Source: Massilia sp. Root133
Lineage (GTDB): Bacteria; Pseudomonadota; Gammaproteobacteria; Burkholderiales; Burkholderiaceae_D
DNA: 64,000 nt
Reading direction: 5' to 3'
Assembly: GCF_001426525.1 (NCBI RefSeq)
Contig: NZ_LMEW01000023.1
Span: 1 to 64,000 of the forward strand
The position numbers and the translations under genes were made by a program. This document shows positions 7,073 to 11,408 of this stretch, piece by piece. The notes under the pieces are model-generated. The model ran no database searches and was not told the origin of the DNA. It saw nothing but the letters and a program-made list of their open reading frames with translations. Position 1 is the stretch's first letter, and each line of letters begins with the position of its first letter.

Positions 7073-8724
7073 CGGACCGCTTCGCCTTCCACTACGCCCC
7101 CGACGGCTACTCGACATCGGGCCCGCGCCTGATGGGACGCCAGGCCGCCGGCGCCGGACTGCTGCGTGCGATCGCGACGGCGCCCGGTCTCGAGTCGGTC
7201 GGCTGCTTCGCCGGCGGCCAGGCCCACGCGGCCGAAGGCGAGCGCCTGCTGCGCGAGTCCGGCTACAAGGGCCAGGTCGACTGGATCGCGCAGGGCCGCC
7301 CGCAGGACCTGGAGCGCTACGGCACGCTGTACCACCCCGCGCCCGGCATCGAACGCCTCGCGTGGCGCCGCCAGGGACTCGGCGAGCGCCGCTACAGCCT
7401 GTGCGGCATCACGCACACGACGGCCAGCCACGCCGTGATGACGAGCCTCGCCAACCTGCTCGTGGCGCCCGTGCGCAGCTGGGATGCCGTGATCTGCACG
7501 TCGCGCGTCGTGCGCGACAGCGTGCGCCGCGTGCTGGAGCGCCAGGCCGAGTATTTGAGTGCGCGCCTCGGTGCCCAGCGCTTCGAACTGCCGCAGCTGC
7601 CCCTGATCCCGCTCGGCGTGCACGCGGCCGACTTCGACGTCGACGCATCCCGCCGCGCCACCGTGCGCCGGCGCCTGGGGTTGGAAATCGGCGACGTCGC
7701 GTTCCTGTTCCTCGGCCATTTGTCGTTCCACGCGAAGGCGCATCCGCAACAGATGTTCGCGGCGCTCGAAGCCGCGGCGCAGGGCGGTGGGCGCGTGCAC
7801 CTGGTGCTGTGCGGGTGGTTCGCCAACGAGGCCATCGACAAGGCTTTCCACGAGGCGGCCGCGCAACTGTGCCCGTCCGTGACGCTGTCGGTGCTGGACG
7901 GCCGCGTGGCCGCGAACCAGCTCGACGCCTGGGCCGCCGCCGACGTCTTCATCTCGCTCGCGGACAACGTGCAGGAGACCTTCGGCCTCACGCCGCTGGA
8001 AGCGATGGCGGCGGGCCTGCCGTGCATCGTCAGCGACTGGAACGGCTACCGCGACACCGTGCGCGACGGCGTGGACGGCTATCGCATCCCGACCGTGATG
8101 CCGGATGCGGGCGCGGGCCCCGATCTCGCGCAGCGTTACGACGATGGCGTGGACAGCTACGACGCGTACTGCGGCCATACGAGCCAGGCGGTCGCCGTGG
8201 ATGGACCGGCCCTCGCGCAGGCCTGCGCGCGCCTCGCCGGCGATGCCGCGCTGCGGCGCGAACTGGGCGAGAACGCACGCCGGCGTGCGCGCGCGGAATT
8301 CGATTGGGCCGTCGTGTTCGGACGCTACCGCGCGTTGTGGCGCGAGCTCGACGAACGGCGTCGCGCCGATGCGGCGCTCGGTCCCGCGCTGCCGGCGGTC
8401 GTGCCGGACCGGCTCGATCCGTTCGAGCTGTTCGCCACCTACCCGACGCTGCGGATCACGCCGGCGTCGATGGTGGAACTCGCGCCGGACGCATCGCTTG
8501 CGCTGCTGCGCCAGTATCGCGAGCTCGCGATCAACCGCTTCGCGCACGCGTCGCTGCCGACGCTGGAAGAGTTTGGACAGATCTTTGGATCGATCGAATC
8601 GCGGCCGATGCAGGTCGACGAGCTGCTCGACGCGCTCGGACCGTGCGACCGGCCGACTTTGCTGCGCGGACTCGCGTGGCTGTGCAAGATGGACTTGCTG
8701 CGTATCACCGCGGCGGAGGACTGA
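7069..8724 (+). CDS. GT4-family glycosyltransferase with a C-terminal extension
   Basis: 551 aa. A GT-B core spans roughly residues 1-430, with FLFLGHLSFHAKAHPQQMF, the acceptor/donor loop VQETFGLTPLEAMAAGLPC and SDWNGYRDTVRDGVDGYR. After the core, about 110 residues (from DPFELFATYPTLRITP) contain a helical block ending LLRGLAWLCKMDLLRITA that resembles a winged-helix-like appendage. It overlaps the upstream glycosyltransferase by 4 bp, so the two probably act in sequence on one glycan. Substrate unknown. Confidence 0.87.
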   Translation: MTDRFAFHYAPDGYSTSGPRLMGRQAAGAGLLRAIATAPGLESVGCFAGGQAHAAEGERLLRESGYKGQVDWIAQGRPQDLERYGTLYHPAPGIERLAWRRQGLGERRYSLCGITHTTASHAVMTSLANLLVAPVRSWDAVICTSRVVRDSVRRVLERQAEYLSARLGAQRFELPQLPLIPLGVHAADFDVDASRRATVRRRLGLEIGDVAFLFLGHLSFHAKAHPQQMFAALEAAAQGGGRVHLVLCGWFANEAIDKAFHEAAAQLCPSVTLSVLDGRVAANQLDAWAAADVFISLADNVQETFGLTPLEAMAAGLPCIVSDWNGYRDTVRDGVDGYRIPTVMPDAGAGPDLAQRYDDGVDSYDAYCGHTSQAVAVDGPALAQACARLAGDAALRRELGENARRRARAEFDWAVVFGRYRALWRELDERRRADAALGPALPAVVPDRLDPFELFATYPTLRITPASMVELAPDASLALLRQYRELAINRFAHASLPTLEEFGQIFGSIESRPMQVDELLDALGPCDRPTLLRGLAWLCKMDLLRITAAED

Positions 8725-8735
8725 TTTCGAATATC

Positions 8736-8755
8736 GCCTTTAAATAAAGGCTTTA
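8736..8755 (+). terminator. Hairpin terminator after the glycosyltransferase pair
   Basis: GCCTTTAAATAAAGGC forms a 7-bp stem with a 2-base loop and is followed by TTTAT, 11 bp after the stop codon. The T-run is short, so efficiency is uncertain. Confidence 0.5.
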
Positions 8756-9050
8756 TGCGGAATGGTAGTAACGTAATGCGCATTGTTTTGCGCGCTTGTT
8801 TTTGGAGACCAAGCAAGACGAGGAAGGAATCAAACGTTATCGCAGCGATCGTTTCGGTTGAGGTTATCGCTGGTTCACCTGTAAAAGACATGAAAAATAT
8901 TGTGTGCGGGTTGCGCACTGACAAGGTTTTCGTGTACTTTACGTGATTGAATTTGTCAAAACGTGAAGACGCCGATTTTCGAGGCGTTCAACGGGAAACA
9001 AACCGATCATAAATGGGACGCTGATTCATTCAGTATGCACGTAAGCTTAG
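8756..9050. other. AT-richer non-coding stretch
   Basis: No ORF with convincing coding character; a 63-codon frame from 8755 has no ribosome binding site and atypical composition. The stretch ends at the strong hairpin at 9051-9108, so it could be the body of an untranslated transcript running right, but no clear promoter was identified. Confidence 0.3.
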
Positions 9051-9232
9051 CGAAAAGAACAAGCCGCATTGCCTGATAAACGTCGGGTATGGCGGCTTTT
9101 TCTTTTCGCGGCCAGCGGGCTGCGATGTGGACAGCGCAGTGAGCCATCGGACTTTAGTCGTTTAGGTCGTCGGCGACGACGATTAGCCGAGGTGCCGCGG
9201 AGAGCGATTGAGCGACTACTGTATGAATACAC
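9047..9232 (-). CDS. Doubtful small Arg-rich ORF below the LexA box
   Basis: 61 codons with only one Met, at 9232, which falls inside the LexA box, so a transcript starting downstream of the box would lack this start. It is very rich in Arg and Ser and reads through the 9051-9108 hairpin. Noted because an SOS-controlled transcript could run this way; it is probably not a protein gene. Confidence 0.12.
   Translation of the reverse strand: MYSYSSRSIALRGTSANRRRRRPKRLKSDGSLRCPHRSPLAAKRKSRHTRRLSGNAACSFR
9051..9108 (+). terminator. Long hairpin with T-tract, rho-independent terminator-like
   Basis: Arms 9051-9067 and 9092-9108 pair over 17 bp with one mismatch (CGAAAAGAACAAGCCGC against GCGGCTTTTTCTTTTCG). 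The right arm contains T5CT4, the arrangement of a rightward intrinsic terminator whose A-tract lies on the left. No protein gene ends immediately upstream, so it may end a small RNA from the 8756-9050 stretch, or the leftward transcript starting at the LexA box. Confidence 0.55.
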
Positions 9233-9236
9233 AGTA
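9217..9236. promoter_or_regulatory. LexA (SOS) box
   Basis: TACTGTATGAATACACAGTA matches the proteobacterial LexA operator (CTGT-N8-ACAG with outer TA/TA), with 6-bp arms TACTGT/ACAGTA. It lies 196 bp upstream of the H1-like gene and just to the right of a non-coding stretch. Neither flanking ORF is a known SOS gene, so the regulated transcript is unidentified. Confidence 0.75.
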
Positions 9237-9321
9237 TAGCGTAAATCGGCGATGAATGCCCGGACGTTTTACGGGTTTTATCGAATCGCCGCGTCAGTTC
9301 GGCTGGTGCCGGATTCATTGA

Positions 9322-9340
9322 CGCAAACATAGCGTTTGCG
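9322..9340. promoter_or_regulatory. Dyad upstream of the H1-like gene
   Basis: CGCAAACATAGCGTTTGCG has perfect 7-bp arms around a 5-bp spacer, about 90 bp before the H1-like start. There is no T-run after it, so it looks more like an operator or 5'-UTR hairpin than a terminator. The binding protein is unknown. Confidence 0.4.
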
Positions 9341-9431
9341 CCGATGAATAATTCGCCCGACCAAGCAGACCGGGTTGGACGGGTTCAAACCATGTAGCGT
9401 AATTTCTCATCGCAGAGAAGGAGAACAGAAA

Positions 9432-10805
9432 ATGGCAACCGCCGCGAAAAAACCAGCAGCAAAGCCGGCCGCAAAAGCCGCCACCAAACCGGCCGCAAAG
9501 GCAGCAGCAGATAAACCAGCAACCAAAACCGTAGCCGCTAAAGCCGCTGCGAAGCCGGCTGCGAAAAAAGCCGCAGCGACCAAAGCTCCGGCTAAATCGG
9601 CAGCAACCAAAACCGCCGCCAAGTCGACCGCCGCCGCTAAACCCGCTGCAAAGAAAGCTGCAGCAACCAAGACCGCCGCCGCTAAACCGGCAGCAAAGAA
9701 AGCCGCTGCAACCAAGACTGCAGCAACCAAGTCGACCGCTACCAAGTCGGCTGCAACCAAGACCGCCGCCAAGTCGACCTCCGCCGCCAAACCGGCAGCG
9801 AAGAAGACTGCAGCCAAGTCGACCGCAACCAAAGCCGCCGCCAAACCGGCTGCGAAGAAAACCGCCGCCAAGTCGACCGCAACCAAAGCCGCCGCCAAAC
9901 CGGCTGCGAAGAAGACCGCTGCCAAGTCGGCCGCTGCTGCCAAACCGGCTGCCAAGAAAGCAGCAGGCAAGACCGCCGCCAAGTCGACCTCTGCTGCCAA
10001 ACCGGCCGCAAAGAAAGCAGCAGGCAAGACCGCTGCCAAGTCGACCGCCGCCGCTAAACCGGCTGCAAAGAAAGCAGCAGGCAAGACTGCCGCCAAGTCG
10101 ACCGCCGCCGCTAAACCGGCTGCGAAGAAAACTGCTGCCAAGTCGACCGCTGCCGCCAAACCGGCTGCCAAGAAAGCAGCAGGCAAGACCGCCGCCAAGT
10201 CGACCGCTGCCGCCAAACCGGCTGCCAAGAAAGCAGCAGGCAAGACTGCCGCCAAGTCGACCGCCGCCGCTAAACCGGCTGCGAAGAAAGCAGCAGGCAA
10301 GACCGCTGCCAAGTCGACCGCTGCCACCAAGCCGGCTGCAACCAAGACCGCCGCCAAGTCGACCACCGCCGCCAAGCCGGCTGCGAAGAAGACTGCAGCG
10401 ACCAAGACCGCAGCGACCAAGACCGCAGCGACCAAGACCGCAGCCACCAAGACCGCAGCCACCAAGGCCGCCGCTCCCGCCGCCAAAAGCGAAGCCAAGC
10501 CGGCAGTGAAGAAGGCCGCCGCCAAGCCGGCCGCCAAGGCTGAAGCGAAGCCGGAAGCTGCTGCTGCTGTTGCGAAGAAGCCGGCCGCCAAGAAGGCCGC
10601 AAGCAAGACCGCAACCAAGGCTGAAGCCAAGCCGGAAGCCAAGGCCGAGTCGAAAGCTGAAACCAAGGCCGACACCAAGGCCGAGACGAAAGCCGAAGCC
10701 AAGACCGACGGCAAGGACAGCGGCGCCGCTGCAGCCCCGGCCCCGGCCGCGAAGTCGGTGATCGCACCAGCAGCATGGCCGTTCCCGACCAGCAGCCGTC
10801 CGTAA
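9432..10805 (+). CDS. Histone H1-like, lysine/alanine-rich nucleoid protein (AlgP-like)
   Basis: 457 aa, almost entirely Ala, Lys, Pro, Thr and Ser. The start at 9432 follows a strong agaaggag site; the longer frame from 9375 lacks one. The body is built of KPAAKKAAGKTAAKSTAA-type repeats (roughly residues 60-330) and a charged KAEAKPEA segment follows, ending in the non-repetitive SVIAPAAWPFPTSSRP. Such proteins resemble the C-terminal tail of eukaryotic H1 and AlgP/Hc1-like bacterial proteins, bind DNA non-specifically and vary in length between strains through repeat slippage. A LexA box and a dyad lie upstream and a perfect terminator follows. Confidence 0.85.
   Translation: MATAAKKPAAKPAAKAATKPAAKAAADKPATKTVAAKAAAKPAAKKAAATKAPAKSAATKTAAKSTAAAKPAAKKAAATKTAAAKPAAKKAAATKTAATKSTATKSAATKTAAKSTSAAKPAAKKTAAKSTATKAAAKPAAKKTAAKSTATKAAAKPAAKKTAAKSAAAAKPAAKKAAGKTAAKSTSAAKPAAKKAAGKTAAKSTAAAKPAAKKAAGKTAAKSTAAAKPAAKKTAAKSTAAAKPAAKKAAGKTAAKSTAAAKPAAKKAAGKTAAKSTAAAKPAAKKAAGKTAAKSTAATKPAATKTAAKSTTAAKPAAKKTAATKTAATKTAATKTAATKTAATKAAAPAAKSEAKPAVKKAAAKPAAKAEAKPEAAAAVAKKPAAKKAASKTATKAEAKPEAKAESKAETKADTKAETKAEAKTDGKDSGAAAAPAPAAKSVIAPAAWPFPTSSRP
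9600..10480 (+). repeat. Tandem coding repeats in the H1-like gene
   Basis: Degenerate units of about 54 bp encode variants of AAKPAAKKAAGKTAAKST, with shorter ACCAAGACCGCAGC units near 10390-10465. Synonymous third-position differences show old duplication plus recent copying of some units. Copy number is likely to vary between strains and to be hard to assemble. Confidence 0.85.
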
Positions 10806-10832
10806 GCCATTCCTGCCTGGTTCAGGCAAAAT

Positions 10833-10868
10833 ACCGCTGTGTGAGCTTTCACACAGCGGTTTTTTTTT
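10833..10868 (+). terminator. Rho-independent terminator of the H1-like gene
   Basis: A perfect 12-bp stem (ACCGCTGTGTGA / TCACACAGCGGT) with a GCTT loop is followed directly by eight T residues, 27 bp after the stop codon. Confidence 0.93.
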
Positions 10869-10880
10869 CAAGGAGTCGTC

Positions 10881-11408
10881 GTGCTGCCCATTCTTAAATT
10901 GATCGTCGATACCGCGGCCGGTGTGCTGGGTGGCGTCTTGCTGCTGCGTTTCTGGATGCAGGTGACCCGCGTGCGTCCGCCGGCGTCCGTCGCGCAATTT
11001 ACGTTCACGTTGTCCGACTGGCTCGTGCGCCCGCTGCGCCGCATCGTGCCGGGCATGGGTGGTTACGACTGGGCCAGCCTGCTGGGCGCGTTCCTCGTCG
11101 TGCTGGCGGCATCGTCGATCCTGCTGCTGGCGGGGACGAGCGGCCAGGCCGTCGTGCTGATCGCCGTGGTCCGCCTGCTCGACTGGATCCTGTACGGTTT
11201 CATGGGCCTGTTGATCATCGAGGTGATCTTCAGCTGGGTCAATCCGCATGCGCCGCTGGCGCCGTTCGTCCACGCGCTCAACGACCCGCTGCTGCGCCCG
11301 TTGCGCCGCGTGATCCCGCCGGTCGGCGGCCTCGATCTGTCGGTGCTCGTGGCCTTCATCCTGATCCAGATCGCGCAATACCTGCTGCGCCAGGTGTTCT
11401 ACATCTGA
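10881..11408 (+). CDS. YggT-family membrane protein
   Basis: 175 aa with a GTG start; AAGGAG lies six bases upstream, just after the previous terminator. It has four hydrophobic helices in two repeats, each followed by the amphipathic motif PLRRIVPGMGGYD (near residue 50) and PLRRVIPPVGGLD (near residue 140), the duplicated YggT signature. It is an inner-membrane protein of poorly defined role, linked in other bacteria to cell division and osmotic tolerance. Confidence 0.9.
   Translation: MLPILKLIVDTAAGVLGGVLLLRFWMQVTRVRPPASVAQFTFTLSDWLVRPLRRIVPGMGGYDWASLLGAFLVVLAASSILLLAGTSGQAVVLIAVVRLLDWILYGFMGLLIIEVIFSWVNPHAPLAPFVHALNDPLLRPLRRVIPPVGGLDLSVLVAFILIQIAQYLLRQVFYI

Follow-up and report, generated by a model that had tools for sequence, protein, structure and literature searches.

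A probable LexA operator inside a predicted structured leader of a histone H1-like gene in one branch of Massilia

Introduction

The LexA operators of beta-proteobacteria follow the palindrome CTGT-N8-ACAG. In its main text, a comparative SOS analysis that covers beta-proteobacteria describes splB and two hypothetical genes there, and names no H1-like gene, the word 'histone' being absent from that text (PMC3323433). Nucleoid proteins with K/A/P-rich repeats form a second group of described systems, including HC2 proteins and those with the C-terminal tail of AlgP or the tail of PhaF. Passages of one report on AlgP state that AlgP-type KPAA repeats bind DNA in vitro, and that the even spacing of polyphosphate granules needs AlgP (PMC9239181). 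A third group consists of structured cis-regulatory leaders, in which conserved helices precede one gene family, with a hairpin at the ribosome-binding site and covariation in the helices. Our searches found no literature on the SOS response and LexA in Massilia, and none linking histone H1-like proteins to DNA damage or the SOS regulon. The titles and abstract openings of the AlgP literature contained no link to damage or SOS, and the literature listings contained nothing to the point on the leader RNA described below.

Here we analyzed the first 64,000 nucleotides of contig NZ_LMEW01000023.1 from Massilia sp. Root133 (the window; all positions refer to it). A candidate LexA operator in the window was like the operators of beta-proteobacteria in sequence, score, and the company of other sites in the genome, but differed from them in that an H1-like gene was its likely target and that it lay inside a structured leader. 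The H1-like protein shared K/A/P-rich repeats with the HC2, AlgP, and PhaF systems, and its gene differed from them by its predicted control by damage. The leader showed the features of known structured leaders, and differed from them in lacking an Rfam 15 match.

Results

The candidate LexA operator (SOS box) was located at 9217-9236, read TACTGTATGAATACACAGTA with no strand assigned, and differed from TACTGTATN4ATACAGTA by one mismatch. A scoring matrix was built from 11 near-consensus sites of the same genome, with the site in the window omitted. On this matrix the box scored 31.8 bits, and the runner-up 20-mer within the window scored 6.0 bits. The leave-one-out scores of the 11 sites ranged from 23.2 to 34.8 bits, with the lexA site at 27.3. 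The matrix was narrow in that its sites were picked by their resemblance to the consensus; the uvrA/ssb and ruvC sites, which were kept out of it, scored 15.6 and 17.2 bits. With this narrowness reserved, the box is, as judged by its letters, among the best predicted LexA operators of the genome. At up to 3 mismatches its 20-mer had a single match in the window, the box itself, and 0 in 100 shuffles, and the exact 20-mer occurred once in the 7.15-Mb genome. The longer pattern TACTGTATN4ATACAGTA gave 18 genome sites at up to 3 mismatches versus 4 for the backwards control, and the window box was one of 10 sites at up to 2 mismatches and one of 6 at up to 1 mismatch.

The box was also the sole exact CTGTN8ACAG in the window. 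The loose motif was nevertheless rejected as evidence, with 8 matches at up to 1 mismatch in the window versus 13.0 expected, and 46 exact matches genome-wide versus 36 for the pattern read backwards. Sixteen of these 46 were copies of a palindrome close to GCTCGCTGTACN4GTACAGCTGCG (such as C1:76316, C5:175874, C23:73394, and C35:127345 of genome G000). These copies scored 1.3-15.2 bits on the LexA matrix and were not LexA-like, and many were apparently intergenic by rough ORF calls. The palindrome is a REP-like repeat and a mimic of the loose LexA motif.

The genome encoded LexA (TIGR00498, 244.7 bits; PF01726 and PF00717 also matched), and we inspected the neighbors of its other near-consensus sites. 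At up to 2 mismatches, these were lexA itself (TIGR00498), dinB (IMS domains), a PA0069-family radical SAM gene (NF033668), a UDG-linked radical SAM gene (TIGR03916), imuA (a partial ORF matching NF033429 at 146.3 bits, just under the cut-off of 150), parE (TIGR01055) and dnaE2 (error-prone polymerase model), both below the whole-protein cut-off with the ORF cut at the locus end, a Y-polymerase-like ORF 638 bp away with a weak match of 28.2 bits, and a tyrosine recombinase gene 15 bp away. Neighbors were looked at for 5 of the 8 three-mismatch sites. One adjoined uvrD and one nadK-recN, where the uvrD and recN matches were each below the whole-protein cut-off with the ORF cut at the locus end; another adjoined a FAN1/VRR-NUC nuclease gene, and two in tandem preceded a PAP2-type gene. 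The LexA-like site before nadK-recN differs from the comparative analysis, the main text of which reports no recN control in beta-proteobacteria (PMC3323433). SOS or repair genes adjoined most of the other near-consensus LexA sites, and the CTGT-N8-ACAG palindrome of the box agreed with these SOS sites of its own host. Because of its 31.8-bit score and the SOS and repair genes next to most of these other sites, we conclude that the sequence at 9217-9236 is very probably a LexA operator. The initial annotation had described a near-perfect LexA box without a recognized SOS gene; the box held up, and no classical SOS gene was found to adjoin it.

The site next to the tyrosine recombinase gene (G000:C32:39595-39614, 2 mismatches) sat, by eye, between that gene and a TetR-like ORF. 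Judging by the site, this recombinase is possibly under damage control.

To the right of the box was a histone H1-like gene (9432..10805, + strand) encoding 457 aa with K/A/P-rich repeats. It matched Pfam HC2 (PF07382) at 62.2 bits, over the cut-off of 40, and NCBIfam histone H1-like NF038053 at 68.1 bits, under its cut-off of 80, and was the only HC2-type gene found in a search of its own genome. The initial annotation had placed this gene 196 bp from the box; the gene was there, but its ATG at 9432 left a gap of 195 bp. Its proposed role as a target was supported in that the gene was the conserved right-hand neighbor of the box, and it appears to be the sole plausible conserved target.

To the left, a long inverted repeat at 9050..9109 (no strand assigned; 18-nt arms at 9050-9067 and 9092-9109, by eye) was terminator-like on both strands and formed the upstream border of the leader region, so that the strong hairpin reported there was real. 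The same repeat was present in genus members without the box. An Arg-rich ORF at 9047-9232 on the - strand, with its GTG start inside the box, had been called weak. It was present in the window, but was rejected as a gene, with its start codon found in 4 of 10 related genomes and its frame shifted in 5 of 10. In all ten, the frames were open for the ~60 codons covered, and openness alone does not exclude an ORF.

Across much of the genus, the stretch between the glycosyltransferase gene and the leader (8900-9109, ~200 bp) had about 72-87% identity, and a small RNA or a conserved 3' UTR could lie within it.

By the neighboring YggT gene, the nearest relatives of the window were named Massilia and Telluria, of the family Oxalobacteraceae. 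The genus survey comprised 62 genomes, 61 of which matched the region and 1 of which had no match. The box was found at 10 of the 61 genus loci, all in one Massilia branch, and the remaining 51 were without it. Box-bearing Massilia include M. kyonggiensis and M. phosphatilytica. The leader was recognized by anchor search in 55 of the 61, including all 10 box carriers; at the other 6 it was found by the RNA model, yet none of these had an exact CTGTN8ACAG. Among 70 named loci with a leader, 6 carried the box and 64 did not. These six fell with the window and L076 into one clade (support 1.0) of a YggT tree with 28 rows, made of 27 of the 80 named loci plus the window; the compared stretch of L076 takes in no leader. 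Another 8 genus loci and a further 5 named loci had forms of CTGTN8ACAG with one mismatch, none of them box-like. The layout of box and leader appeared in 1 of 294 family genomes, namely the own genome of the window, the other nine box-bearing genomes being outside this sample. Since the box was missing from the surveyed leaders outside the branch, the predicted SOS control of the H1-like gene is not ancestral.

Within the ten box genomes the commonest form of the box was TACTGTATGAAAATACAGTA, and the C of CTGTN8ACAG stood at -212 to -214 from the start codon. The alignment varied at 3 of 20 box columns and at 0 of the 8 columns of the CTGT/ACAG core. The flanks were more variable, with changes at 25 of 40 columns upstream, where a gap was scored as a change, and at 11 of 40 columns on the downstream side, and the leader behind the box varied at 10 of 145 columns. 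Fisher tests of box versus flank variability gave 0.0008 against the upstream flank and 0.02 against both flanks. Conservation in related genomes, a check proposed with the initial annotation, was thereby found within a single clade.

The H1-like gene was preceded by a predicted structured 5' leader (9184..9431, + strand). Its first helix, P1, has its 5' strand at 9184..9200, as seen in leader alignments A1 and A2, and its 3' strand at 9289..9305, which would pair with 9184-9200 across an insert. The predicted fold further contained P2 (9313-9349), P3 (about 9355-9383), and a hairpin at the ribosome-binding site (about 9404-9423), all on the + strand. The 145 bp ending at the H1-like start (9295-9439) were kept in 241 of 294 family genomes. 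Alignment A1, made of 49 leaders without the insert, gave a consensus with several helices, in which 97.4% of the counted cells paired versus 31-47% in slid controls. Two-sided changes were seen in 44 cells versus 7.8 in shuffles, and neither this count nor the covariation score was reached in any of 500 shuffles, although the A1 sequences are related and such counts lean high. Two stricter measures were weaker, with pairs showing a two-sided change at 7 versus 4.3 (27 of 500 shuffles as high) and further pair types at 35 versus 32.3 (40 of 500). Helix 5 (P3) and a single pair of helix 4 had the strongest covariation support, and the outer P2 stem (helix 3) was invariant in A1, hence uninformative. 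The leader thus had covarying helices above shuffled controls, among kin sequences and with the two stricter measures weaker.

A covariance model found the leader in 23 of 300 genomes of the order, 3 of these by short matches only, and the matches fell in families f1, f3, f4, and f31. The longer matches outside the family were weaker (E 2e-12 to 2e-5). An H1-like frame followed directly behind the leader match in 18 of the 20 loci with longer matches (L197-L216); of the other two, one was masked within the H1-like frame and one gave no clear frame. In f4 and f31, P1 had different letters and was again an inverted repeat (by eye). RNA model R1 matched 9273-9433 at 114.8 bits, a match that did not extend across the insert to the 5' strand of P1. 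In window 8500-11000 and in 12 loci, no match to an Rfam 15 family attained its gathering score. Independently of the box, the leader (window 9184-9431; loci L078-L150 and L197-L216) is a candidate for a new cis-regulatory RNA.

In the window, 88 nt (9201..9288, + strand) separated the two P1 strands, compared with a loop of ~11 nt in the family. This clade-specific expansion of the P1 tip contained a further hairpin (9258-9262/9272-9276) besides the box arm. At genus loci without the box, matches to the window ended at or before about 9201 and restarted at 9295, with the exception of L012 and L013. In the ten box genomes, 90.0% of the P1 cells paired. Compared to the family, three P1 pairs carried a change in each strand (two from U-A to C-G and one from A-U to G-C, found by hand in A1 and A2 and not in every member), and P1 covariation within the ten was no better than in shuffles. 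In 8 of 8 members folded, out of the 10, P1 closed over side arms, one of which was tipped by the box. The fold z values were -4.0 to -8.4, inflated by the SOS palindrome, which folds by itself on either strand. As RNA, the box was predicted to form the tip of an extra arm with the stem TACTGTAT/ATACAGTA, and the loop of this arm was GAAA in 9 of 10 genomes and GAAT in the window. By folding into its own side arms, the insert can, in the model, let the old P1 still close around it. A repeat as the source of the insert was rejected, as a second copy was absent from the genome. No consistent promoter emerged upstream of P1 from sigma-70 scans. Because of this, the placement of the box inside a transcript rests on the predicted fold, by which the box probably lies within the transcribed leader, rather than in an ordinary promoter.

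L012 and L013, nearer relatives without the box, carried unrelated hairpin-rich inserts at the same position of the leader (hairpins by eye). The loop at the P1 tip seems to accept extra arms repeatedly.

Discussion

From the quality of the box, its genome context, its conservation, the conservation of the leader, and the predicted fold, we infer binding by LexA and its regulatory outcome. We favor, with somewhat better than even confidence, the reading that a branch-specific LexA operator was added inside an existing leader, so that LexA would lower expression of the H1-like gene and DNA damage would lift it. One Massilia branch would have acquired the operator within the DNA that encodes the H1-like leader. 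In undamaged cells, LexA on the box would lower H1-like expression by one of two routes, either as a roadblock that halts RNA polymerase inside the leader or by occluding a start site located in the insert. Upon DNA damage, RecA would trigger the self-cleavage of LexA and the block would be lifted, and the H1-like nucleoid protein would thereby join the SOS response. Passages of one study describe polymerase paused by LexA in vitro, and indicate that roadblock sites can be introduced downstream of a promoter that is already present (PMC4132739).

Promoter candidates near the box were weak on both strands. In a second reading, LexA might control an internal rightward promoter in the insert, yielding an SOS transcript that lacks the P1 5' strand and has a differently folded leader. 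The sequence TATAGC (9235..9240, + strand), a possible -10 of such a start, overlaps the right end of the box with TATA in 10 of 10 genomes, resembling E. coli recA, where a LexA box serves as spacer and TATAAT follows. Just downstream of the box, the promoter-like ATGAAT-18-TTTTAT (9252..9281, + strand) has the best sigma-70-type + strand score in 9183-9320, at 9.1 bits. However, the + strand site overlapping the box (TTGAGC-18-CAGTAT) scored only 5.3 and TATAGC has no conserved -35, and the 9.1-bit site begins 15 bp beyond the box with a spacing of 16 to 20 among the ten genomes (by eye); we regard an internal promoter as rather unlikely. The initial annotation had also offered a short leftward RNA, about 150 nt long and terminating at the hairpin of 9050-9109. 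On the - strand, the sequence TATACT overlaps the box, the best promoter-like score is 8.1 (TTTACG-16-TACAGT), and the hairpin is terminator-like on this strand as well; moreover, of the two flanks of the box the right-hand one, which would contain a leftward -35, is better conserved (11 versus 25 of 40 columns variable). The hairpin is, however, terminator-like in both directions, the DNA left of the box is conserved also in relatives without it, no leftward ORF is conserved, and the form driven by the box would exist in this clade only. The leftward RNA is therefore unsupported, and we consider it very improbable.

It could also be argued that the box is nothing more than a hairpin in RNA, tipping an additional leader arm with a GAAA loop, and that its likeness to a LexA site arose by chance. 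The junction with the box arm in all eight folded members fits this, as do the other hairpin-rich inserts of L012 and L013, since the loop may take extra arms generally. On the other hand, the stem of the box has an A.C mismatch in 4 of 10 genomes and no two-sided change, and for a given hairpin an 8-bp arm would match the SOS consensus of the genome about 1 time in 65,000 (by arithmetic). CTGT/ACAG never varies, and variable columns number 2 of 16 in the box arms versus 9 of 17 in the P1 5' strand (p 0.026, columns by eye). Because of the invariant CTGT/ACAG, the A.C mismatches in the arm, and this difference between box arms and P1, the comparison favors the DNA site over an RNA arm as the object of selection, the numbers being small, and the hairpin-only reading is improbable. 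A site that binds LexA and affects no gene, as regulatory noise or a relic, would fit a single, lineage-restricted site far from the start codon. Against this, the core is invariant in 10 genomes while 25 of the adjacent 40 upstream columns vary (gaps counted), and we hold this reading to be quite improbable.

Returning to the favored reading, in which a LexA operator was placed within a leader that already existed, control may be no more than modest with one box lying 195 bp away from the start codon. As a further and speculative step, which we offer with considerable doubt, the same 20 bp could serve both as a DNA operator and as the tip of an RNA arm in a previously undescribed cis-regulatory RNA. 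Damage would then determine how much H1-like mRNA is made and which 5' form it has (with P1 or without it), and an SOS branch that remodels the nucleoid by way of an H1-like protein would have been added in one lineage with the older RNA control undisturbed. The LexA operator is of a known kind, and its target and its setting in a structured leader are new as far as our literature searches go. If true, these results would tie DNA-damage signaling to a bacterial histone H1-like protein. They show how a gene with a structured leader already in place could gain a repressor site, and point to a leader RNA, without an Rfam match, that four families of the order carry upstream of their H1-like genes.
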